Below are positions 1-24,058 of a stretch of DNA of 36,724 nt, piece by piece. The position numbers and the translations under genes are program-made. This DNA is from an uncultured Mycoplasmatota bacterium (GTDB lineage Bacteria > Bacillota_I > Bacilli_A > RF39 > UBA660): positions 1-36,724 of the forward strand of contig CANAXT010000010.1 in the NCBI GenBank assembly GCA_947365915.1. Direction: 5' to 3'. A model generated the notes under the pieces. The model did no database searches, was not told the DNA's origin, and worked only from the letters and a program-made list of their open reading frames with translations. How positions within the stretch are numbered: the first letter of the stretch is position 1; every line of letters begins with the position of its first letter.

Positions 1-562
1 CCAATTTATTTTCATTTAATATTTTATAAGCTTCATATAAAATATAGTTAAAATCTATCATTCTATTTTTTAATAATTCAGAATAATAATCATTTACATA
101 ATCCCTATATCTTATTTCCTTTATTTGACCAGAAATATCAAAAGTATAATCAATATAATAATCATTTTCTAAATTATATTTATCAAATAATTTATCTTTT
201 ATTTTTCTTGAATCATCTTCACCTATTATTGAAAAAGGTTTAGATAATACTTTAGAAAATCTACTATATTTTCTAATAATAAAATCCAAGCAAAATTTAT
301 GAATAGTTCCTATCCAAATATTATCAGGTATAAAACCAACCTGTTTTAAAATTCTATCCTGCATTTCATCTGCACCTCTATTTGTATAGGTAATAGCAAT
401 TATATTCCTTACATCATTTTCGTCAAATTCATAAAGAATCTTATTAGTAAGTGTCCGTGTTTTTCCACTTCCTGGAATTGCAACTAATAAAATATTACCA
501 TCTGCTGTTATTGCATCAAATTGTCTATCGCTCAATTTTTGAAGAAATTTTTTATTTTTCAT
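1..562 (-). CDS. gajB: GajB-like UvrD/Rep-family DNA helicase, N-terminal part (runs off window)
   Basis: This reading frame is missing from the ORF track because it is cut by the window edge. It starts at an ATG at 562 and stays open for about 187 codons to base 1. It begins with a Q-motif-like stretch (LSDRQFDAI), then a superfamily 1 Walker A (PGSGKT), then motif Ia-like TYTNRGADEM, followed by IGTIHKFC and a DFNYILYEAY segment. This is the usual order in UvrD/Rep helicases. The Walker B and C-terminal helicase motifs lie outside the window. The start overlaps the end of the upstream OLD nuclease gene by 11 nt, so the two are translationally coupled. A short UvrD-like helicase directly behind a class 2 OLD/TOPRIM protein is the gene order of the Gabija anti-phage system, where GajB is thought to sense or unwind DNA termini and to activate GajA. 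The gajB name rests on this context, because only the N-terminus is visible. Confidence 0.82.
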   Translation of the reverse strand, partial: MKNKKFLQKLSDRQFDAITADGNILLVAIPGSGKTRTLTNKILYEFDENDVRNIIAITYTNRGADEMQDRILKQVGFIPDNIWIGTIHKFCLDFIIRKYSRFSKVLSKPFSIIGEDDSRKIKDKLFDKYNLENDYYIDYTFDISGQIKEIRYRDYVNDYYSELLKNRMIDFNYILYEAYKILNENKL

Positions 563-2597
563 TATATAGACCTCTTATATAAAGCATAAAAGTATCAGTT
601 ATTTCATCTTCTTTGAGCCTTTCTTTTTCACAATATAATTTAACAATTTGATTATAGATTTTTTTATTATAGATATCTGAAGGGAAAAAATTTTTAAGTG
701 AATCAATTATGTAGTCTGGAATAATAAATTTTTTTATAGAATCTTTCCCTTGAGATTTTAACCATTCAATAAAGTCTAAAGCAAGCCACCCTTTTCCAAG
801 ATTCTTTGCAACAAGTAGAATTCTTCTAAATTTAATCGTTTTATCTGTATTTTCATGTAATTCTTTTAAAATTCTGTCAACATCTCTAGTGTATATTTTA
901 CGGTCTTTTACATATTTTGCAAATAATTCTATATTATTAGAATATAACTCTATCTCAAAAGTATAATCATTAGTATAAATATTAACAAATTCATTATTTA
1001 AATGAATAAAATTCAATTTGTCTACTCTATTTTTGCTTAACTTTTCTGCTTCACTATTTATTAAATCAAAAGATTTGTCCAAATCAGTTAAAATAGAACA
1101 TTTTTTGCGCAATCTTTCTTTATTAAACAATTTAGACATCTTTTCAAAAAAACAATTGTCCATAGAAATCAAGCTTATACCATAAGCATTTAAATCAAAT
1201 CCGTATTTCAATTTTAGTATGTTATCAATAAATATTAACTCTGCATCTCCTTCAACTAGCATCACACTTTTAGAGAATAAAATTGGAGATCTAACAGAAT
1301 CTAAATATCGTTCTAGATATCTAATTTCATCTTCTTTCAATTGATTTGAAGGAGAATATATTTCACAACTTTTTTCACCTTTTTTTCCCAAAACAATCAT
1401 TGAAGATATATTACATGATTCTGATATATGCACCGAGTGCGTTGATAACATTATTTGGGTATTCAAAGTTTTCCCAATACCACTAAAAAAAGTCTGTTGT
1501 AAATGTTTATGTAAATGAGATTCTGGCTCTTCAATTATCAGTAAATTAAATAATCTTTTAGTATGGCCCATAAAATAATTATTTTGAAGCATTTTTAATG
1601 CAAAATATATAATATTATTTTCACCCAAACTTTTGTTATATAAATCTATTAAATGATTTTCCACTTTTCCCTTTAAAGTAAAATATTTTATAATTTTATT
1701 TTTGTCTTCTGGCACAGAAACATCTAGAAACATATCTCCAGAAAAAGATGAACCTACTGTGTTATTCATCATTCCAAAAATCTCATCTGTTAGTTTGGTA
1801 AACTCTTCTATATTTTTTAACTGGTCATTTATTGTATTAAAATTTTGTTTTATCGTGCTCCATTTTGTTTCGTCAATATTTTCAGATATTGATCCCAGCA
1901 TCTTTTCAAAAAAATTTCCATCCTTTATCAATTCAGAATTAACATCACGAATTGCAGGAATAAATGTAACATTTATAAACTTAGTCAATTCAAAGTCATC
2001 TTTGTCACCAATTTGAGTTGAGTCTTCTTGAACATCATCAGGGCTTGGAAAAATATAATTATCAAAATCCCCAATGATTTTTTTGTAAGTTTCATCATCT
2101 ATAAAGTCAAAAATAGTACCAACAGTCCTCTTTACCTCGTAATCATTTCTTATATCTATGTTATTTATAAATTCTTCTAATTGCATTTTTTTTAAAATTT
2201 TTTCTTCTGCATCTTCTATTTCTAAATATTCTTTTGATAAAGTATATAAATTATTTCTTACAATTCTATTTGGTCTAAAAATTAAAGTATAAATAGCTTC
2301 GTTTTCTTCATTTGCATTAAAACTAACAGCTTCTGGAATTTCTTCAGAATTAGGAATATCTTTAAAATATACGCTAATAATTATCCAATGACCATTCGGT
2401 TTATCTAACTCATATGAAAAATCATTTTCTTCTAAAAAATGTCTATTATTTCTATCTAATAATTGTCTAAGTGCATAAAATAAATTTGTTTTTCCAGTTC
2501 CATTTTCACCTATAATTGTTATTACATCGCTTTCTAAATTAATAGAACATTTATAAAAATTTTTATAGTTTCTTATTTTTAATTTACTAATATACAT
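552..2597 (-). CDS. gajA: GajA-like OLD-family ATPase/TOPRIM endonuclease (Gabija defence)
   Basis: A 681-aa protein with an ABC/SMC-type ATPase followed by a TOPRIM nuclease domain, the class 2 OLD arrangement. Visible motifs are Walker A GENGTGKTN (residues 30-38), a signature-like SLGENN (about 323-328), Walker B IIEEPESH (354-361), the switch STHS (385-388), the TOPRIM glutamate in LVEGDAE (448-454) and the TOPRIM DxD in TDLDKS (504-509). Known GajA is a DNA endonuclease held inactive by nucleotides and released during phage infection; it assembles with GajB. This protein is roughly 100 residues longer than the reference GajA as I recall it, with the excess probably in the inserted coiled region (about 100-330) or the C-terminus. 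The next gene is a UvrD-like helicase overlapping by 11 nt, which supports Gabija over a solitary OLD nuclease or a PARIS AriA. The start at 2597 is the first ATG and fits the conserved ISKLKIRNYKNF opening. All catalytic motifs are intact, so it is probably functional. Confidence 0.88.
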   Translation of the reverse strand: MYISKLKIRNYKNFYKCSINLESDVITIIGENGTGKTNLFYALRQLLDRNNRHFLEENDFSYELDKPNGHWIIISVYFKDIPNSEEIPEAVSFNANEENEAIYTLIFRPNRIVRNNLYTLSKEYLEIEDAEEKILKKMQLEEFINNIDIRNDYEVKRTVGTIFDFIDDETYKKIIGDFDNYIFPSPDDVQEDSTQIGDKDDFELTKFINVTFIPAIRDVNSELIKDGNFFEKMLGSISENIDETKWSTIKQNFNTINDQLKNIEEFTKLTDEIFGMMNNTVGSSFSGDMFLDVSVPEDKNKIIKYFTLKGKVENHLIDLYNKSLGENNIIYFALKMLQNNYFMGHTKRLFNLLIIEEPESHLHKHLQQTFFSGIGKTLNTQIMLSTHSVHISESCNISSMIVLGKKGEKSCEIYSPSNQLKEDEIRYLERYLDSVRSPILFSKSVMLVEGDAELIFIDNILKLKYGFDLNAYGISLISMDNCFFEKMSKLFNKERLRKKCSILTDLDKSFDLINSEAEKLSKNRVDKLNFIHLNNEFVNIYTNDYTFEIELYSNNIELFAKYVKDRKIYTRDVDRILKELHENTDKTIKFRRILLVAKNLGKGWLALDFIEWLKSQGKDSIKKFIIPDYIIDSLKNFFPSDIYNKKIYNQIVKLYCEKERLKEDEITDTFMLYIRGLYNEK

Positions 2598-2850: not shown

Positions 2851-3591
2851 CTAATAATCACTATAATTAACCGCATTAATCTTCTCACCATTTCTAGCAA
2901 TATCATAAAGCATTAAACACCTTGAAAAATTACTACTACTAGTATACTTATGATGCTTTATAAAATCTTTCAACCACTTATTATTTCCATTAAAAATACA
3001 AGGAAGTCCAGTACCAAACCATATTCCATCATAAACAATAATACGATTATAAATATATAATTCACGTCCCTCATTCAATTTACCAAGACTACTCATCGAA
3101 ATATCAATTATTTTATACTTCTTCTTTGTAAAAACATCCTGATAAGTCACATACCCATTTACATTATCATAACCTATTACTTTAAATAATCCAACAATCG
3201 AATCATTCATAGCATAAAACATTTTTACCTTTTCCTGTGACTTAAATTTCTTCTTCTGAATATATATTTCAGTTAAAGACGGAAACTTATTATGAGTTTT
3301 ATACATAAATAACTCGTTAAAAATCACCGCGTCATTGAGTTCTTGATTATCTAAAAATATCTCTAAACCTTTCGTTTCTCTTCGTACATCAAAAACAATA
3401 CGATCAAAATATTCATCAATAGGTAACTTACCACTATCAATATAGTTCACCATAATCTCTAACACACTAGAATGTATTTTCCGAGCTCTATAATACTTTT
3501 TTATATGATCTTTACGATTCAAAAATAAATTTCTATTTAAATTCACTATAAAATTAATTGCCTCTTCCTGACTATCAAAAAAATTACCCAT
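2851..3591 (-). CDS. Uncharacterised 246-aa protein, last gene of the SWIM/pRiA4b operon
   Basis: I do not recognise a family. The protein is soluble, with no signal peptide or membrane segment, and rich in Lys, Tyr, Asn and Phe. The N-terminal half looks helical. The C-terminal half has an alternating beta-like segment with FKVIGYDNVNGYVTY and ends in a compact region carrying GIWFGTGLPC. The pattern of a short beta-barrel-like stretch (roughly residues 125-190) could be a small nucleic-acid or ligand-binding fold, but this is speculation. It starts 12 nt after the stop of the pRiA4b ORF-3-like gene on the same strand, so it is almost certainly co-transcribed with the three genes upstream. 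It is followed by about 250 bp before gajA with no obvious terminator, so read-through into the Gabija genes is possible. Confidence 0.7.
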   Translation of the reverse strand: MGNFFDSQEEAINFIVNLNRNLFLNRKDHIKKYYRARKIHSSVLEIMVNYIDSGKLPIDEYFDRIVFDVRRETKGLEIFLDNQELNDAVIFNELFMYKTHNKFPSLTEIYIQKKKFKSQEKVKMFYAMNDSIVGLFKVIGYDNVNGYVTYQDVFTKKKYKIIDISMSSLGKLNEGRELYIYNRIIVYDGIWFGTGLPCIFNGNNKWLKDFIKHHKYTSSSNFSRCLMLYDIARNGEKINAVNYSDY

Positions 3592-3603
3592 ATTCCCATC
3601 TAC

Positions 3604-4200
3604 TTATCCTTTGACCTCATAGCCATTCTTAATTTCTAAAACTAATCCTTTTAAATTTTTATTATTTGTTTTTATATTAAACTTACGATAATCATATTTT
3701 TCACACTTCTCATATCCAGGCGTAACATAATGATCAGAATACCCCTTTTCATCAATATCATCAACAATTGCCTTTAACTGAAAATCACTAATATCATCAA
3801 GCATTCCACGTCCCGCTCCATCAACAATATATGGATAAAGATGTCCATCATATTCACCCATATCTCGAGAACCCAAATAAGTAATTTTAAAAGTCGTAGT
3901 AGAACCCATATCATAATCCATTTCCATAACATCATTCTCTGTTAAACCAATACTTCCCAATGTCGTTACTACTGCGTTCACAGGTGGAATTTTACTATGA
4001 TTATCCTCAATACAAACCCAACAATCATAAACCTTACCATGAAACTTTATATGATACAAATGATACGCAAGAGAATCAAACGTTGCAAGTATCGTATACG
4101 CCAAATCAGCAACCGTTCTCCGATCTGTAATTTCAATTACCCTCCATATTTTATCCTCTAATCCTTCAATTCCAACTCTAAAAGTCAATACTTTAGCCAT
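3604..4200 (-). CDS. Plasmid pRiA4b ORF-3-like family protein
   Basis: A protein of about 198 aa that matches the plasmid pRiA4b ORF-3-like family by recognisable features. It opens with a short beta strand (VLTFRVGIEG), continues with the typical KIWRVIEI and TVADLAYTILATF motif, and carries the later MDYDMGSTTTFKITY segment with its conserved YDMGS.W/F-like core. Members often sit in mobile or plasmid DNA and their biochemical role is unknown. The ORF track starts at 4215, but the AGGAGG-like site overlaps that first ATG; the ATG at 4200 (MAKVLTF) has the site at correct spacing, so I start there. The gene is the third in an operon with DUF6429 and a SWIM protein (53-68 nt behind the SWIM stop) and is followed 12 nt later by the 246-aa unknown gene. 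No enzymatic residues can be assigned. Confidence 0.8.
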   Translation of the reverse strand: MAKVLTFRVGIEGLEDKIWRVIEITDRRTVADLAYTILATFDSLAYHLYHIKFHGKVYDCWVCIEDNHSKIPPVNAVVTTLGSIGLTENDVMEMDYDMGSTTTFKITYLGSRDMGEYDGHLYPYIVDGAGRGMLDDISDFQLKAIVDDIDEKGYSDHYVTPGYEKCEKYDYRKFNIKTNNKNLKGLVLEIKNGYEVKG

Positions 4201-4268
4201 TGATAACACCTCCATTTTAATCTCATTTATTTCCTGGCTTTCTAATATTCACATACAATAAATTCAAT

Positions 4269-5921
4269 TTATAATCCCCTCAACTCATCCTGCATTGCAG
4301 GCCGATTCCGATATTGCAAACGAATTTCTGACAATAACTTCTCATATAAAACCTTACTATGTTTCATCTCCTTAATATGTCTCAAATCCGAAGCCAACTT
4401 TCTATATAAATTTCTATTATTCGCTACCTTCGCAAACTCCCTACAACGATCCAAATAAATCCCAATCAGTTCCTGATTATATTTCGGTAACAAATACGTT
4501 TCATAACGAACAATAACATCCATTTCTTTATCTTTTACAACAGAATAAATATCATCATACATTTTTTCCTCAATATAAATATTCAAAATATGATAAAAAT
4601 ATATATCTTTCTCTTTTAACACCTTATCAATAATCTTCTGCCTTTCCACTAACCATTCCTTACGAGAATAAAGCTTCTTAATTTTTTTATAAACTTCAAT
4701 ATTATACTTACTCAAATCATATAATAACTGATATAAAATCTGTTTATATTCTTCCATCATATTCAACTCAAAATAAATATCACTTAACTTAAAAGCATAA
4801 CGAGCATCATTAACAGAACCCGTTTCTTCCAAACGATCCTTCAATAACTGAATTGCTTTATCTCCATCTTTTATCCTCATATATTCATCCACTAACCTAA
4901 AACAAACATCATAATCAAACGAATATTCCTCTAACAATTCCAAAATCTTTTCCTGATGATTTCCTATATCATATATAGAAACCAAATAATCAACATAATA
5001 CTTTCTATGCCAACAATACTCATCATTTTTACGCATCTTTAAAAGATGAACCAAATGTTGTTCAATTTTTTCTAAATACACCTTACCATCAATATAATAA
5101 CGAAATAACTCATATAGTTCAATTCCATAATTAGATAAATAATCTGTCATCGTCTCATGAAAAATATATTGTAAAATATCAAGCGACAATTTCTCATCTT
5201 TCTCTAACACCTGATCTAAAATACGTTCGATTATTTGAATACAACTATCCGCAACATCACCAGTAGAACCATCCGAATCATCAATATCCGTATTTGGAAT
5301 CGTCTCTAATATACTAGTAGCAACATCAAAAGCAAGCTCATAATGATCATGACTAACAAGCGCCTCCACTTCCTCAGTAATTTGAGACATCGCATTCACA
5401 TAATCCCAAGCTTCCTGATAATCAATAAAACCATCCCTACCACCACTAGACCGAATCGCATCATATATTTTCTTTCGATACTGAGCGAGTGTTAAAACAG
5501 GAAACAAATGATGAAACTTTAACCGAAATTGATCATAAATATGCTCATCACTCTCTAATAACTTCACTAAAAAATCTTCTAAATCCTGCTTATCAATCTG
5601 TCTCAAAATACCACGAATCTCCTGTTTTTTACTTTGATAAATACCAGAGCATTCTTCAATATCATGCTCTTCTAAATAATATAATAAAGCCGCTATATGT
5701 TTACAATAAAGTCCTTCACTCGCATACGGACAACTACAACCAGCTTCCATTAAATCATGATCTTCAAGATAAACAAAAACCTGATAAACACTTGTCCCAC
5801 TAACTTTAGCTACAATGACATCTCCTTCTTCATGAACATTTTCTACCAACCCTTGTTTATAATATTCATACCCTCTAGAAAGTATCTTTTCTTCAAATTC
5901 ATCTTTATAATTAATTCTCAT
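4269..5921 (-). CDS. SWIM zinc-finger domain protein with helical-repeat C-terminus
   Basis: A 550-aa protein with a SWIM zinc finger near the N-terminus. The ligands are C62-x-C64, C73 and H75 in CSCPYASEGLYCKH, exactly the CxCx(n)CxH pattern. SWIM fingers bind DNA or protein. The N-terminal residues 1-50 (an FEEKILSRGYEYYKQGLV motif) are the usual lead-in of bacterial SWIM proteins. The remaining 450 residues are almost all alpha-helical and Tyr/Leu/Glu-rich, resembling TPR- or HEAT-like repeats, a likely protein-binding scaffold. There is no helicase domain, so this is not the SNF2-SWIM type. The start overlaps the stop of the DUF6429 gene by 11 nt, showing tight coupling. Function is unknown; the combination with DUF6429 and pRiA4b ORF-3 suggests a joint accessory function. 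Confidence 0.85.
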   Translation of the reverse strand: MRINYKDEFEEKILSRGYEYYKQGLVENVHEEGDVIVAKVSGTSVYQVFVYLEDHDLMEAGCSCPYASEGLYCKHIAALLYYLEEHDIEECSGIYQSKKQEIRGILRQIDKQDLEDFLVKLLESDEHIYDQFRLKFHHLFPVLTLAQYRKKIYDAIRSSGGRDGFIDYQEAWDYVNAMSQITEEVEALVSHDHYELAFDVATSILETIPNTDIDDSDGSTGDVADSCIQIIERILDQVLEKDEKLSLDILQYIFHETMTDYLSNYGIELYELFRYYIDGKVYLEKIEQHLVHLLKMRKNDEYCWHRKYYVDYLVSIYDIGNHQEKILELLEEYSFDYDVCFRLVDEYMRIKDGDKAIQLLKDRLEETGSVNDARYAFKLSDIYFELNMMEEYKQILYQLLYDLSKYNIEVYKKIKKLYSRKEWLVERQKIIDKVLKEKDIYFYHILNIYIEEKMYDDIYSVVKDKEMDVIVRYETYLLPKYNQELIGIYLDRCREFAKVANNRNLYRKLASDLRHIKEMKHSKVLYEKLLSEIRLQYRNRPAMQDELRGL

Positions 5922-6213
5922 CTTTTATATACTTCTTTATTAGCTCTTGAGCCAATAATTCTCCTTCCTTCGTTAACGTAACTGATTTATTTCTATGTTT
6001 GCCATCAAACAAATATCCCTGATCAGTTAGCGCATTTAATGCATCAAAAGAATACCCCTTCCAACTATGCTTTAAAACTGTTTTTTCCACTTGATCATCT
6101 TGATCGAAATAATAACCCTCTTCATTCCAAGCAGTTAAATAAAGTAATAATAGTGTTAATTCTTCTATCTGTTTATCCATTCTTCCATTCACAACCTTTC
6201 TTCTTATATCCAT
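5911..6213 (-). CDS. DUF6429 family small protein
   Basis: A small protein of 89-100 aa that I recognise as DUF6429 from the opening EELTLLLLYLTAW, the central HSWKGYSFDALNAL and the final KSVTLTKEG. The layout resembles a winged-helix-like small domain (helix, helix, short wing), so nucleic-acid binding is possible but unproven. The track start is the ATG at 6213; an internal ATG at 6180 (MDKQIEEL) fits the family start better, while the best SD-like sequence (AGAAAGG) lies between them. It is the promoter-proximal gene of the SWIM/pRiA4b/246-aa operon and overlaps the SWIM start by 11 nt. The coupling and the small size suggest a regulatory or stoichiometric partner role. Confidence in the family is good; the exact start is uncertain. 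Confidence 0.75.
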   Translation of the reverse strand: MDIRRKVVNGRMDKQIEELTLLLLYLTAWNEEGYYFDQDDQVEKTVLKHSWKGYSFDALNALTDQGYLFDGKHRNKSVTLTKEGELLAQELIKKYIKDEN

Positions 6214-6276
6214 TGTAATACAATAATTTCGTTTTGTCTAACATACGAAATAATATAATAAATTTAAACCATATTA

Positions 6277-6374: not shown

Positions 6375-7910
6375 CTACAAATGATAATACTTCATAAGCG
6401 AATCATATTCCTTTTCAACCATTTCGTCAAAATTACTCCCCATTTTTACAGCCATTCCAAGTAACATCCCATCGTAAACTAAATTCCCTTTAAATGGAAT
6501 AATAGAAGTAATCGCAACATGTGGTAACTCATCATATGGAATAATATTATCAATATTATCATTAATACCTTTTACCATATAGATTCGATCTTGCTTCATA
6601 AAAGCAGTATATTCTAACTCATATCTAGCGATAATAAATAAACCTCGAATTCCTTTTTGAAACTCGTTTGCGATATTCAATTCCTCCCCATTAAATTTAT
6701 ATGGATTAGACAAACAAAATTCTGATGTAATTACATCTTTGTTTTCCCAATATTTATCCACAATATCTTTAATTTCCATTGGATCAATCCCATTACGACG
6801 ATATATTTTAATATGATCATTAATATTATATTTTTGATTCGTAAATTCTAACAACCCAAAATAAATTTTATAAAATAATTTTGCATCCGATTTTGATAAA
6901 CAAGCATCTTGCTGTCTCACATATCTTTGTGCCTTCTGAACTTGCAAACGCACTTGCTTTTCCTTAATTTTTCTAGCTTCATTCGGTGTATAGCCATTTA
7001 GTGCTCCTGATGGCATCTCATCCACAGCTTCATCTAAAATCTTAAAAAACTGAGTTAAATCAACATGCTCGAGCGCTGGAACACTCTTAATAGACTCCTT
7101 CAAAGACGTACGATCTATATTTAACATAGCATAATCCCGAATTAATTCAAGCGCTGAAAACCAAAAGAAAGGCAACTGTTTCAATTCGTCCAAAAACCTT
7201 TTAATCTTAGGATTATGAATATCAAAATCATGATAAAACAATGTTTTAAATAGTTTAAGATCTATTTTTTGAGTTCCTACTAATCCTTGCTTTCTTCTTT
7301 CTTCCTCTAATTCATCTGCTATCCCATAATAATCCTGAAAAATCGCAATTGGAATATTTTCACCAAAATGCTCTATATCTCTATTAACAACAAACACATA
7401 ATAACAAAATACCTTATCACTTAACATATGATTCCATATGACTTCAGAAGATATTCCTGTAATTTCTGAAGCAAACTGACACACTGTAGGTAATAACGCT
7501 GAACCTTGAATTTTACAATACCCTACCAATAACTCATTCAAATCATCGATTTTCTTCTTTTCACTCCACTTTACTCTTTTTAAAGCTTCTCTAACTTTAT
7601 CAATCATTTCTTCAGGTACCTGAAACTCTTTACCATAATCATAAGCAAGTAAGAATTTATGCCTTAAAGTATCTTTTTCCCAATCATATTTATCATCTAA
7701 AACTGGCTCTTGATTTAATACTTTTTTCAAATATTTTAACTCTCTAGTTGTACAAATACCAACAATATGATCTGGGTTATCATAAACTTTATATATTGCA
7801 TCTAACATTTTAACCTTGGTTATTTTTTCATAATCCTTAAAATCTTGTACAATTCTTGTATATTGCTCATATACATATTCTTTTTTAAATTCATTTATTT
7901 CTTCATACAT
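6375..7910 (-). CDS. Uncharacterised 511-aa protein paired with an AAA/DUF4143 ATPase
   Basis: I cannot assign a domain. The protein is soluble and largely helical. It carries a TPNEARKI-like motif mid-protein (SGALNGYTPNEA) and a beta-rich C-terminus with IIPFKGNLVYDGML. That last motif resembles the tail of a family of uncharacterised Firmicute proteins I have seen next to SEC-C or pRiA4b-type genes; this is recollection rather than a search result. There are no Walker motifs, no membrane segments and no obvious nuclease signature. The gene begins 29 nt after the stop of the DUF4143 ATPase on the same strand, so the two are probably one transcript ending at the hairpin near 6290. It lies between two other unknown or defence-type operons, which suggests an accessory role. 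The ATG at 7910 is the first in frame, and no strong SD is visible. Confidence 0.65.
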   Translation of the reverse strand: MYEEINEFKKEYVYEQYTRIVQDFKDYEKITKVKMLDAIYKVYDNPDHIVGICTTRELKYLKKVLNQEPVLDDKYDWEKDTLRHKFLLAYDYGKEFQVPEEMIDKVREALKRVKWSEKKKIDDLNELLVGYCKIQGSALLPTVCQFASEITGISSEVIWNHMLSDKVFCYYVFVVNRDIEHFGENIPIAIFQDYYGIADELEEERRKQGLVGTQKIDLKLFKTLFYHDFDIHNPKIKRFLDELKQLPFFWFSALELIRDYAMLNIDRTSLKESIKSVPALEHVDLTQFFKILDEAVDEMPSGALNGYTPNEARKIKEKQVRLQVQKAQRYVRQQDACLSKSDAKLFYKIYFGLLEFTNQKYNINDHIKIYRRNGIDPMEIKDIVDKYWENKDVITSEFCLSNPYKFNGEELNIANEFQKGIRGLFIIARYELEYTAFMKQDRIYMVKGINDNIDNIIPYDELPHVAITSIIPFKGNLVYDGMLLGMAVKMGSNFDEMVEKEYDSLMKYYHL

Positions 7911-7939: not shown

Positions 7940-9202
7940 TTAATTTTTTAGCGTTCCAATAGATACAACATAAATATAATCTTCTCTTTTATAAGAATAA
8001 TCTGCTCCAGTTAAAATCATTAAAAATGATGGTTCACCATATTTATCAGTATCCACTTTATCTTTAAATTTGTTTAAATTATTAGCAGCTTCTGGAATTT
8101 CACCAGCACCTAATTTTATTTCTATCGCCCCCCATTTTCCATCAGACATCTTTAAGATACAATCAACTTCAAAATCATTTTTATCTCTATAATATGATAA
8201 TGTTGCATCCATAGCATCTGCATATATTTTTAAATCTCTAATACACATATTTTCAAATATAAAACCAGTAAAATTTAAATCTTTAATTAAATCTTCTCTT
8301 TTTAAATTTAAAGAGGCAATAACTAGTGATGGATCTACCAGTTCTAATTTTGGTGAAACTCTTAATGGAGTTTTTGATCTTAAATTAAGATTGGTAGCAG
8401 GAATATATTCTAAAATATACAATTTTTCTAAAGTATTTAAATAATCATCTAAAGTCGGTCTAGAAACTTCATTGACAAATTCATTTTTTACATCATCCAA
8501 AATTGTTGTTTTACTAGTATTCGTTGATATATTTCTAGAAATACTTTTTAATACAGCACTCATTTTTGATAAATTTCTTTCTACACCATCTATTGTTTTT
8601 ATTTCCTCACTGAGTAAACTCTTAATATAATCCTTAGCTATTTTATATTTATTGTCACCAGATATATTAAGTGCCTCAGGCCATCCACCTCTTATCATCG
8701 CATTAATAAGACTATCAAAATCAAGATTAGAAACACCCTCAATATCCTTTCCATCAACAATATCACTTAAAGATACTTTTCCATTAGATTCACCAGACTC
8801 AAATAAAGACATAGGTCTCATTAATAATTTGGTAATTCTTCCTGTTCCTGTGTGCATAACACTATCTTCTAACGGTCTTGCTGAACTAGTTAATATATAT
8901 TGTCCTTTTAATCCTGTATGGTCGACATCAGTTCGAATAGAATCCCATACAACTGGATACATTTGCCATTCATCAAAAAGTTTTGGCTTTTCTCCTTCTA
9001 AAAATAATGATGGCTTCGTTTGATTCATTTTATCATATTGCATTTTCTTATCAGGATCTTGAAACTCTATATAACTTTTTGCTACTTGTCTTGCCGTCGT
9101 AGATTTCCCACACCATTTACATCCTTCAATTAATACAGCACCCATATATTCTAACTTATTTTGTAATAATCCATCAACAATTCTAGGTATATACTTTTCC
9201 AT
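7940..9202 (-). CDS. AAA family ATPase with DUF4143 domain
   Basis: A 420-aa protein of the AAA_14 plus DUF4143 type. The Walker A is GCKWCGKST (residues 27-35), followed by the usual PKLFDEWQMYP Walker B-like segment and an LTSSARP sensor region. Residues about 200-300 form the winged-helix part, and the C-terminal half is DUF4143. Near the end, a DFEVDCIL plus AIEIKLG pair matches the D/E-x-K core of the restriction-endonuclease-like fold common in this family. These ATPases are widespread and poorly understood; some act with toxins or in defence islands. The start at 9202 has a GGAGG-containing SD (GGAGGAGATACA) at good spacing. The 511-aa unknown gene follows 29 nt downstream. All key motifs are intact. 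Confidence 0.85.
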   Translation of the reverse strand: MEKYIPRIVDGLLQNKLEYMGAVLIEGCKWCGKSTTARQVAKSYIEFQDPDKKMQYDKMNQTKPSLFLEGEKPKLFDEWQMYPVVWDSIRTDVDHTGLKGQYILTSSARPLEDSVMHTGTGRITKLLMRPMSLFESGESNGKVSLSDIVDGKDIEGVSNLDFDSLINAMIRGGWPEALNISGDNKYKIAKDYIKSLLSEEIKTIDGVERNLSKMSAVLKSISRNISTNTSKTTILDDVKNEFVNEVSRPTLDDYLNTLEKLYILEYIPATNLNLRSKTPLRVSPKLELVDPSLVIASLNLKREDLIKDLNFTGFIFENMCIRDLKIYADAMDATLSYYRDKNDFEVDCILKMSDGKWGAIEIKLGAGEIPEAANNLNKFKDKVDTDKYGEPSFLMILTGADYSYKREDYIYVVSIGTLKN

Positions 9203-20859: not shown

Positions 20860-21040
20860 AGAATAGGAGTTGCTAAGGCATTTCTACCTCATTACTATTA
20901 TGGTTACTATTTTTTTATTTTATACATTTTTTAATAACAATGGTTAATTTTCGTTCATAGGCGTCTGTGCCAAAGGCTATTAAATTCTAGTTTATCTAAT
21001 TTTAAAACCTTTATTTTTCTTTATATTTTCCCAATTTTGA

Positions 21041-22310
21041 TTAAAATAAACTAAAGTATAAATATAAAGTTTCAAAATTTTGCTTATTATAGTCTAATTC
21101 ATGAGTATCATCTTTAATTTTTGTGAAATAATGATTGTACCTTCTTGTTACTAACTCTTCAATATTTTCTTTAGTTTTTTCCTTTTGATTATTTATTCTT
21201 GAAATTTCTCTTTCTACATTTTTTTTATTTTTTCTTCTTGCAAAACAAAACCTAATAATTCTTTAAGTCCTTTCCCATTTTAAAATAATGATAATTTATT
21301 TCTATTATGTACTTTTAATCCTAAACAATAAGGCAAGAATATATGTTTTGCTACCATATCTTCTTCATAAATACCACCATATAAAGTTTTGAAAATAAGC
21401 GCTAATAAATCATAATCAGATAAAACCCTATTTATTTCTCTCATATTAAGTTTGAAATAATCAATTATTGCAAATAAAGAATAATTCCAAAATTGGCTAG
21501 TCTTATTTATACTAAATACTTTGCTTAAATATTTTTCGGTATCTATCCCATCTAATTCTATTATTAAATCATAAAATTTGTTTAAGTAACTATATCCATC
21601 AAAATTACTTCCATAGCAATTGTTAATTGTATGACTTAATTGCTCATTATTTGTAGATACTATAAAAACTATATTATCATTGCAAAAAAAATGTTTTAAA
21701 GTTTCTAATAAATTTACCGCAAAAATAGGTTTACATCTATCCAATCCATCTACAATAAAAAGCATTTTTTTATCATTTGGTATTATATTTTTCAATAATT
21801 GATTTAGTGCATTTCTTTTTTTCTTCTACTGTAAATATCTCCTTGAGGATATCCTCAAAAGATGTAACTTTATCAAGATCTATTAAATTTCCACTTATAG
21901 ATTTTAATAATTCCTTTAAGTTAAAGGGTAATTGTACTTTACTATTTGTAGTTTGGTTCTTTTCTTTTGGATAATCATTAATTAAATTATAAATTAATGA
22001 TAACAATGGTGAATCATGCATGTCATTTTCCCAAGCATTATAATAAAAAAACAATATAATTATTTTTAAACTTTTTTGCAGAGTTTTTATTCAATGTATT
22101 TAAATTTTTCTTTTTGTTAATTAATTCTAACTGCTTTACAAATATAGTTTTTCCAATTCCCCAGTTTCCATCAATCGAAATAACCACATTACTATTTAAA
22201 CTGTTTAATATATCAATTAATTTACTTAATTTTTTATTTTCCCCTAAATAATCTTTTTCAATACTATCAACAAGATTCTCTTCGGTAAGCTGCATATCAT
22301 ATTTTTCCAT
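21041..22310 (-). pseudogene. KAP-family P-loop NTPase, broken by frameshifts and a stop
   Basis: Three track ORFs and an unlisted tail are fragments of one gene. Reading in order gives Walker A WGIGKT (fragment 22038-22310), the family FNAW-like YYNAWEN (fragment 21773-22054) and the Walker B VDGLDRCKP (fragment 21280-21795), all hallmarks of KAP NTPases. Frame is lost at a T7 run near 22045, an A7 run near 21820 and an A8 run near 21229; in addition an in-frame TAA follows SLF at 21280. Past the last slip the tail reads on to a stop at 21041. KAP NTPases are often plasmid- or defence-associated, and some are membrane-bound. The 5' end starts 1 nt after the DUF1016 stop, so the two were an operon. 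Inactive unless the indels are sequencing errors. Confidence 0.82.
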
Positions 22311-22311
22311 A

Positions 22312-23322
22312 TTATTTATCTTCTACCATTGGCAAATGTAATCTAATTTCTTCCTCAGTAGGCAATTTTTCTTGAATTTCTTGAGTTAGTTGTTCAAATA
22401 TCTTGTATTCACTAACCCCAACAGGCTTATTTATATATTTTAAAGTATAATCAACTATTTTATTACTTTTATTTTGACATAAAATAATTCCTATAGATGG
22501 ATTATCATTTTCATCCTTTACTTCTTCATCTAAAGCAGTAAGATAGAATCCCATTTTACTAGCAAATTCTGGTTTGAACTCTACAACTTTTAATTCTACT
22601 GCAATATAGCATTTTAGTTTGATATGATAGAATAATAAATCTATATAAAAATCTTGATTATCTATTGTTATTTTGTACTGATTTCCAACAAAAGAAAAAC
22701 CATTACCTAGTTCAAGTAAAATATTTTTTAGCTTACCTAACATTTTGTTTTCTAATTCTTTTTCTTTATAGTCTTGTGTTAACTCAATTAAATCAAATAC
22801 ATAAGGTTCTTTCATCATATTGTTTGCAAGATCACTATTTTGTTTTAATGTTAATCCAAAGTTATTATGTTTTATCGCACTTACTTGTCTATCATAAAGG
22901 TTAGTATCTATTTGATATACAAGAATACTATCAGACCAGCCATCTTCTAAACATCTACTCATATACCATTTTCGAATCTCTTTATCTTTTACTTTTTGCA
23001 TTAAAGTAATATTATGTTTCCAAGGCAATTGTGCAACCAGTTGCACAAATTCTTCATCATCTTTATATTCATTATAAAAAGATTTCATATATTTTAAATT
23101 ACGAACAGAAAAACCTTTTAAATTAGGGAAGGACATTTTTAATTCTATTGCAACATTATCAATAAACTTATTTCCCCAACTACTATTTTCTTCTAATGTT
23201 TTACCAATATTAAAATACAAATTAACTAATTTTTTATTAGCATCGGTCATAATTTCTAATTGGGTTTTAGTAATATCATTTTTAATATTACTTGTTATTT
23301 CTTGAAATGATTTATCTAACAT
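22312..23322 (-). CDS. DUF1016 (YhcG-like) PDDEXK nuclease family protein
   Basis: A 336-aa protein of the DUF1016/YhcG family, with a helical N-terminal domain (an LYFNIGKTLEE motif, then SVRNLKYMKSFY and VAQLPWKHN) and a C-terminal PDDEXK nuclease fold. Candidate active-site motifs are FYIDLLFYH and AVELKVVEF. The family is frequently near type I restriction genes or in mobile islands, with proposed DNA cleavage in repair or defence; experimental support is limited. The AGGAGG site gives a clear start. Its partner is the broken KAP NTPase directly downstream. No hsdR/M/S genes are in this window. Confidence 0.88.
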   Translation of the reverse strand: MLDKSFQEITSNIKNDITKTQLEIMTDANKKLVNLYFNIGKTLEENSSWGNKFIDNVAIELKMSFPNLKGFSVRNLKYMKSFYNEYKDDEEFVQLVAQLPWKHNITLMQKVKDKEIRKWYMSRCLEDGWSDSILVYQIDTNLYDRQVSAIKHNNFGLTLKQNSDLANNMMKEPYVFDLIELTQDYKEKELENKMLGKLKNILLELGNGFSFVGNQYKITIDNQDFYIDLLFYHIKLKCYIAVELKVVEFKPEFASKMGFYLTALDEEVKDENDNPSIGIILCQNKSNKIVDYTLKYINKPVGVSEYKIFEQLTQEIQEKLPTEEEIRLHLPMVEDK

Positions 23323-23476
23323 AGTTAAGCCTCCTCGTATAAATATTATACCATTTTAAAGGAATTATTTATACTATTTTAGGTAGCATTTTTATTGAAT
23401 TTTTTTAATCATAATTAACACTTTTTAAACTTTTTCATATTAATCTTAACAAAATTTAATCCAAAACAACAAAAAT

Positions 23477-23492
23477 GGAGCCTTTCGGCTCC
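23477..23492. terminator. GGAGCC/GGCTCC hairpin between DUF1016 and the lipoprotein gene
   Basis: A perfect 6-bp stem. On the minus strand the loop is GAAA (GNRA) and the stem is followed by ATTTTTG, which makes a minus-strand terminator the better reading; on the plus strand the T-run is distant. No minus-strand gene ends here, so it may stop antisense read-through or belong to a small RNA. Confidence 0.5.
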
Positions 23493-23536
23493 TTCAGGGG
23501 GTTTTACTCTTTTTCAATGAAAATAGTAAAAAACAT

Positions 23537-23565
23537 TTGACTTTTTGCAGATTTTATAACATAAT
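23537..23565 (+). promoter_or_regulatory. Sigma-A promoter of the lipoprotein gene
   Basis: TTGACT (23537-23542), a 17-bp spacer and CATAAT (23560-23565). The AAGGGAG ribosome-binding site and the ATG at 23597 follow. Confidence 0.75.
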
Positions 23566-23596
23566 ATTATTCAAGTTCCGAAGGGAGAAAATAATT

Positions 23597-24058
23597 ATGA
23601 GAATTAAAAATTTTAAAATCAATCAAAAGGCAACATCTAAATTAGTGGCTTGTGTATTAGCTGGTACTCTTGCGGCTACAACATTAACAGGATGTGAAGA
23701 TACTAATAGAAATAATCTTTTAAAAGGAACTATTTTAGAAAATACTTGTGTAGTTACTTTTGAAGATGGTTCTAAAGACATTGCAGTTGCAATTGATACT
23801 TGTGATGATAAATATCATCATTATTATAGTATTATATCAGGAGAGTATTTTGGAAGCAAAAATTGTCAGAAAAAAACAATTTATAAAACTGTAGTTCATC
23901 ATTATGAAATTACTAATGAAGAAAATATTACTGGCTATTTAACAACTGATGAATTGACAAAAGCAATACAAGGAGAATTAGATAACAATGATATAATTAC
24001 TATTGTTAGTAGATCTATTGAACCAATTAATGAAAAAACAAATACAAAAACAAAATAA
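23597..24058 (+). CDS. Small predicted lipoprotein
   Basis: The track ORF begins at 23537, inside the promoter; the ATG at 23597 with an AAGGGAG SD is the real start, giving about 153 aa. The N-terminus is basic (MRIKNFKINQK), then a hydrophobic core, then a lipobox LTGC at about residue 32, so a diacylglyceryl-Cys lipoprotein is expected. The mature part is unusual: many His, Tyr and Asp residues (DKYHHYYS, VVHHYEI) and a C-terminal Lys/Thr tail. I do not recognise a family. It stands alone, between a DUF1016/KAP remnant and a transposase remnant, with its own promoter and a strong terminator. The His-rich patches could bind metal, which is only an inference. Confidence 0.8.
   Translation: MRIKNFKINQKATSKLVACVLAGTLAATTLTGCEDTNRNNLLKGTILENTCVVTFEDGSKDIAVAIDTCDDKYHHYYSIISGEYFGSKNCQKKTIYKTVVHHYEITNEENITGYLTTDELTKAIQGELDNNDIITIVSRSIEPINEKTNTKTK

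Follow-up and report, generated by a model that had tools for sequence, protein, structure and literature searches.

Genes for DUF6429, SWIM, PRiA4_ORF3 and U246 proteins upstream of Gabija as plausible movable parts of a shuffled gene set in an uncultured Mycoplasmatota bacterium

Toxin-antitoxin networks of the Panacea type are hyperpromiscuous, i.e. one small domain is combined with many partners, which are encoded in adjacent and often overlapping genes (PMC8832971, PMC10440598). PADLOC phage-defence candidates were counted apart from predicted resistance systems in a survey of Streptococcus thermophilus (PMC11514479). Gabija, in turn, is recognised by GajA, an OLD-family ATPase/TOPRIM protein, followed by GajB, a UvrD-like helicase. 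Here we analysed a stretch of 36,724 nucleotides (nt), referred to as the window, which represents the entire contig C10 (CANAXT010000010.1) of an uncultured Mycoplasmatota bacterium with an assembly of 1.55 Mb in 101 contigs. In this window, four minus-strand genes upstream of Gabija, encoding a DUF6429 protein, a SWIM zinc-finger protein, a PRiA4_ORF3 family protein (PRiA4) and an orphan protein of 246 amino acids (aa; U246), had been described in a preliminary account as a tightly coupled and possibly undescribed system. Our comparison with relatives indicates that the four genes do not constitute a single fixed system but belong to a set whose movable parts are shuffled, which provides a plausible, still unproven lead to a defence-accessory role, and it identifies a neighbouring gene for a 511-aa protein (U511) as the most strongly linked member of this set. 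In the open-access library searched, no paper mentions DUF6429, and none was found for PDC-S62 or for SWIM and pRiA4b in connection with defence islands.

The distribution of the families was determined in an unbiased sample of 193 genomes of the order, including the genome of the window, and genes within 12 kb of each other were regarded as co-located. The genes of the cluster are patchily distributed accessories, which most of these genomes lack. Of the five families considered (the four proposed members and U511), SWIM was found at 21 places, U246 at 10, PRiA4 at 27, DUF6429 at 11 (over the Pfam cut-off) and U511 at 35, one of which (G173) is a 40-aa fragment. The full four-gene set was present in none of the 192 other genomes. 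Another of the five families was located within 12 kb at 8 of the 10 U246 places and 7 of the 11 DUF6429 places, and at 6 of 21 for SWIM and 6 of 27 for PRiA4, which means that the families occur in part separately, an outcome that the preliminary account itself had named as speaking against its proposal. Since the set is missing from the other genomes and SWIM and PRiA4 mostly stand apart, we conclude that the four genes do not represent a fixed operon.

Individual pairs, however, clearly co-locate. The strongest link exists between U246 and U511, for which we counted 7 loci compared to 0.035 expected at random positions (p 1e-14), so that U511 accompanies U246 in 7 of the 10 U246 loci. Based on the same expectation, DUF6429 and U511 (5 loci, p 7e-10), DUF6429 and SWIM (4 loci, p 1e-8), SWIM and U511 (5 loci, p 2e-8) as well as PRiA4 and DUF6429 (4 loci, p 3e-8) are found together, and all five pairs keep p values of 4e-6 or below once the genome of the window is excluded. 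Because the expectation assumes uniform positions, these p values cannot tell a functional link from shared hotspots. U246 in the vicinity of SWIM or a short PRiA4 was not found in the other genomes of the sample. U511 adjoins the proposed unit in the window and had nevertheless been omitted from it; when gene sets in defence islands are delimited by inspection, it should be verified which member is the truly linked partner, here the next gene upstream.

That the four genes form one dedicated, undescribed defence system, as had been suggested, seems very improbable to us. The tight coupling in the window, the adjoining Gabija genes and the status of the SWIM protein as an existing PADLOC candidate would fit such a system, but the set does not recur in the order, its three-gene tail SWIM-PRiA4-U246 was found only once outside the window (L167), and the gene with the strongest links lies outside the set. 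What holds of the suggestion is that pairs of the genes co-locate, that the first overlap is repeated in another locus (L183) and that the island lies beside defence genes.

We additionally inspected 79 DUF6429 loci from a named-genome collection, some of which share contigs with the 193-genome sample, and observed only partial sets. DUF6429 and SWIM overlap by 11 nt in L183, as in the window, and DUF6429 and U511 overlap by 11 nt in L167, which carries the above-mentioned tail on the same contig. Overlaps of 1 nt connect DUF6429 with PRiA4 (L146, L152), with SWIM (L186) and with a 405-aa protein (L157). The gene orders comprise ATPase-DUF6429-SWIM (L142), ATPase-DUF6429-c7-U511 (L160-L162), ATPase-PRiA4-U246 (L204) and DUF6429-405-aa protein-c7-U511-PRiA4-PRiA4-SWIM (L157, L153), where c7 is a 144-aa protein of relatives matching an integrase SAM-like domain (5.8e-6) and the ATPase belongs to AAA_14/DUF4143. 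The latter recurs beside DUF6429, U511 and PRiA4 (L142, L155, L160-L162, L204, L255, L262, L263, L266, L267). In a genome of another family (G248), SWIM and DUF6429 have decayed to fragments, which lie on the same strand at a distance of about 0.7 kb. The data support a coupling of DUF6429 to exchangeable partners, namely SWIM, U511, PRiA4 and the 405-aa protein.

A further exchangeable partner following DUF6429 is a family of about 465 aa without a Pfam match (tested for L155, 9409-10806); its members in L144 and L156 are clearly similar to the one in L155, and those in L159, L172 and L176 were assigned by size, which gives at least three loci, or six by size. L157 (12575-14626) also contains a tandem pair of long PRiA4_ORF3 proteins, the second of which has two domain copies.

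When the gene order was shuffled within each of 83 de-duplicated loci, adjacency was supported for DUF6429-c7, PRiA4-c7, PRiA4-U246 and DUF6429-U511 and weakly for PRiA4-DUF6429 and PRiA4-SWIM; the adjacency of DUF6429-SWIM (p 0.13) and of SWIM-U511 was not significant in this test (p 0.13-0.16). U511 and U246 are moreover connected by a protein in L108 (2312-3925), in which a U511-like N-terminal part is fused to a U246-like C-terminal part (E 1e-36 and 1e-12, respectively); no further fusion was seen. A homology of U246 and U511 themselves was not significant by profile comparison, and their link consists of the fusion protein and the co-location.

These results bear on the main alternative, according to which the genes are unrelated cargo of shared hypervariable chromosomal sites and became neighbours by recombination and not by joint function. 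We consider this a real possibility, albeit a doubtful one. It agrees with the fact that the exact four-gene set never recurs, with the mostly separate occurrence of SWIM and PRiA4, with the serine recombinases that flank several copies, with the very diverse neighbours and with the two pairs whose adjacency did not exceed the shuffled order. However, shared sites alone can hardly explain that gene overlaps recur in the same register, that U511 and U246 are fused, and that four pairs are adjacent more often than in shuffled loci.

The position of the genes in the chromosome could be clarified by comparison with congeners. On the minus strand of the window, the order of transcription is YihA-type GTPase and Der (both core genes), AAA_14/DUF4143, U511, DUF6429, SWIM, PRiA4_ORF3, U246, gajA and gajB. 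In four congeners (L271-L274), der is followed by genes for 81 and 491 aa, which we read from the sequence, not by family search, as spoVIF and spoIVA, with no island genes in between; in a fifth one (L275), other genes occupy the site. Since AAA_14/DUF4143 directly follows der in the window and the congeners have no island genes there, at least 9.2 kb have been inserted. The four genes thus sit in an acquired island, which speaks against conserved core synteny, the second outcome that the preliminary account had set against itself. The far boundary of the island was not located, and a search for spoIVA in the assembly of the bacterium gave no match.

The features of the island are listed in Table 1. 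All four open reading frames (ORFs) are intact and succeed one another as previously stated, and the family assignments as well as the Gabija neighbour could be validated, with PADLOC recognising GajA and an 11-nt overlapping partial GajB. The overlap at the first junction (5911-5921) was also confirmed; the last junction (PRiA4_ORF3/U246), for which an overlap of 12 nt had been reported, is in fact a 12-nt gap (3592-3603). SWIM and PRiA4_ORF3 are separated by 53-68 nt, depending on the start of the latter, for which the ATG at 4200 is favoured because of a GGAGG sequence. For DUF6429, we favour the ATG at 6180 because of the promoter-like site at 6240-6212 and of relatives that begin with MDK or MEK, noting that such promoter-like sites are frequent across this AT-rich DNA. 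Elsewhere in the window, positions 21001-24000 are AT-rich (GC content about 0.22-0.25) and differ from the flanking DNA.

Table 1 Features of the island in the window, in order of transcription.
Feature	Position	Strand	Evidence
AAA_14/DUF4143 ATPase, first island gene	7940..9202	-	Pfam DUF4143 2.8e-31, AAA_14 5.9e-14; PADLOC PDC-S01 2.5e-57
U511, 511 aa, outside the previously described four-gene unit	6375..7910	-	without Pfam family
Promoter-like site TAGACA-17 nt-TACAAT, between U511 and DUF6429	6212..6240	-	consensus match only
DUF6429, 89 aa	5911..6180 (ORF open from 6213)	-	Pfam E 3.6e-22; alignment of 40 sequences
SWIM zinc finger (residues 46-83), followed by a long tail of helical repeats	4269..5921	-	Pfam E 5.5e-9; PADLOC PDC-S62 8.9e-23
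PRiA4_ORF3 family protein	3604..4215, likely start 4200	-	Pfam E 8.3e-16
U246, orphan, 246 aa	2851..3591	-	alignment of 8 sequences
gajA, complete, Gabija neighbour	552..2597	-	PADLOC GajA 2.2e-163
gajB start, 187 codons, rest cut by contig end	2..562	-	PADLOC GajB 4.4e-54

In addition to Gabija in the window, defence-type genes are found around related clusters. BREX genes (BrxC end, PglX, PglZ, BrxL) and a GmrSD-type gene lie near the cluster in L081, Wadjet II jetABCD in L082, related jetC/jetD genes, recognised by similarity only, in L094, and a type I restriction gene in L092. Immediately upstream of DUF6429, an AbiEii gene with an upstream DUF6088 gene ends 17 nt before it in L157 (7408-9261, on the contig of L084), in L152, L153 and L166 a gene of the same size has the same distance to DUF6429, and an AbiEii of a second type precedes it by 10 nt in L092. 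A YhcG (DUF1016/PDDEXK) nuclease gene overlaps DUF6429 by 17 nt in the same register in L096 (7715-8984) and L099 (7679-8753). Other defence-type neighbours include an AbiL-like ATPase (L174), a NACHT-like protein (L098) and a KAP ATPase (L093). A credible defence match was obtained for 4 of 10 test neighbours (AbiEii twice, AbiL-like, Schlafen/AlbA_2-type) compared to about 1 of 17 proteins from random regions; the 17 controls gave one Fic match and one PADLOC candidate, and their mad3 and IetA/AAA matches were judged non-specific. Mad3-like (MADS) matches in L146 and L167 were dropped as defence evidence, as the proteins read as ABC-type transporters, and the Mad3 model also matched a random control region (L241).

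From these results, the most likely single function of the genes is, in our tentative judgement and at somewhat less than an even chance, that of movable accessory genes acting in islands of the defence or toxin-antitoxin type. Several observations weigh against this. The association with defence genes is no more than suggestive; a small matched control did not establish the enrichment statistically. A recognisable enzyme or catalytic domain is missing from all four proteins, and no known effector is among them. Beyond the order, DUF6429 was found in Bacillaceae, Clostridia and Elusimicrobia, where these partners are mostly missing; for Bacillaceae and Clostridia, most of the records found lack the other families. 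Several clusters lie among ordinary genes, for example an ABC-type transporter (L167), an MMPL-type transporter (L183) and PheT (L189), as read from the sequence. Type I methylases were close to only 2 of the 21 SWIM and none of the 27 PRiA4 places; N6-methylase proximity, considered as an unbiased defence marker, was weak and generally not close.

A phage or plasmid origin of the genes was rejected, since DUF6429, U246 and full-length SWIM were hardly found in viruses or plasmids, if at all: 2.9 million viral contigs contained three DUF6429 relatives and no U246, plasmids gave one partial DUF6429 match and eight partial SWIM matches with no full-length SWIM protein, and no PHROG was found for any of the four proteins.

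The proteins themselves offer further hints. The AlphaFold2 (AF2) model of DUF6429 is confident (predicted local distance difference test, pLDDT, 88.5) and shows a compact protein with the order helix, hairpin, helix, strand, helix. A winged helix, previously considered possible, is no more than plausible: weak profile matches include MarR-type regulators, but no fold match reached E <= 0.001, the best Foldseek match having an E of 0.048 and those to TubR and MarR-type proteins being weak. Winged-helix-like and OB-fold-like matches from the fold searches with DUF6429 and U246 were taken as hints only. Proteins of about 830 and about 400 aa that matched the Pfam model of DUF6429 below its cut-off were disregarded. 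In SWIM, the residues C62, C64, C73 and H75 of the CxC...CxH metal-ligand pattern are invariant in 12 sequences, and the tail matches designed pentatricopeptide repeat (PPR) proteins (E 8.5e-7), in agreement with the helical repeats described before. PRiA4_ORF3 weakly matches the solved structure 2i1s (E 0.004). U246 has no family above the cut-off in Pfam nor in PADLOC or NCBIfam; one of its five AF2 models is reasonably confident (pLDDT 78.6, compared to about 40-47 for the others) and combines N-terminal helices with a small C-terminal beta-barrel, and the fold search that had been recommended for this protein gave no match at E <= 0.001. U246 also occurs in a conserved neighbourhood of three genomes of one genus (L101 1687-11202, L102 1258-7285, L103 8296-16112), together with U511, phosphoesterase-like and cation-efflux-like genes and, in two of them, a long PRiA4, the roles being read from sequence.

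For U511, profile relatives outside the order share its N- and C-terminal regions, and two of them contain SEC-C motifs; one of these, a 730-aa protein in L284 (469-2661), also has a GNAT acetyltransferase domain. These relatives would fit a role in stress or protein quality control, with ribosomes, nascent chains or damaged proteins as the targets recognised by zinc-binding adaptors of the SEC-C or SWIM kind and with DUF6429 as autorepressor. The invariant SWIM cysteines and histidine and the near absence of DUF6429, U246 and full-length SWIM from viruses and plasmids are in line with such a role, but the genes are patchy accessories that most genomes of the order lack, and they are located in an island and not in core positions, so that we regard it as quite unlikely.

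In the reading that we favour, the AAA_14/DUF4143 ATPase, U511, DUF6429, SWIM-repeat, PRiA4_ORF3 and U246 proteins, and c7 in relatives, constitute a modular set of accessories, which moves with chromosomal islands of gut Bacilli and whose members are combined anew in different genomes. The proteins of the set may be non-catalytic binding modules, possibly assembled in physical complexes. The small, winged-helix-like DUF6429 would be translationally coupled to the adjoining partner and would regulate it or act as its adaptor. The SWIM-repeat, PRiA4, U511 and U246 proteins might function as scaffolds or recognition subunits, and any effector activity would be contributed by a neighbouring enzyme, presumably the ATPase in the window and AbiEii, the YhcG nuclease or further enzymes in other loci, as part of a response of the defence or toxin-antitoxin type. 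A more far-reaching version, which we consider rather unlikely, is that gut Bacilli possess a combinatorial system of the immune or toxin type. In this system, a tiny DUF6429 regulator would be coupled to interchangeable SWIM, U511 or PRiA4 recognition proteins, which direct different neighbouring effectors (ATPase, AbiEii, YhcG), following a Panacea-like logic with unrelated sequences. If the defence or toxin-type role is right, several families that lack an assigned function would be united as interchangeable components of such islands in uncultured gut bacteria, and DUF6429 would be a searchable marker for them.

Compared to described systems, the closest matches are PADLOC candidates: PDC-S62 covers most of the SWIM protein (residues 8-533, profile positions 17-541 of 566), and PDC-S01 most of the ATPase. 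Since both proteins carry candidate labels, part of the neighbourhood had been flagged before; the statement that no member has an assigned function still stands, but the neighbourhood is not wholly undescribed. Both labels differ from our findings in being single-gene candidates, which do not include the coupling to DUF6429, PRiA4, U511 and U246. The type IV toxin-antitoxin system AbiE is related to the set by AbiEii just before DUF6429 (L157, L092); however, the window contains no AbiE, and DUF6429 is not part of the AbiE definition. SEC-C motif proteins share terminal regions with U511 through its relatives outside the order, whereas Pfam gives no such motif for U511 itself. Compared with type II toxin-antitoxin systems, DUF6429 overlaps its partner genes, as seen in the sequence. 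In contrast to Panacea, to which DUF6429 is linked by pattern and not by sequence, its partners are large and have neither a recognised enzyme domain nor an identified toxin; the likeness, which concerns the pattern only, is that of a small protein with many partners in adjacent, overlapping genes.

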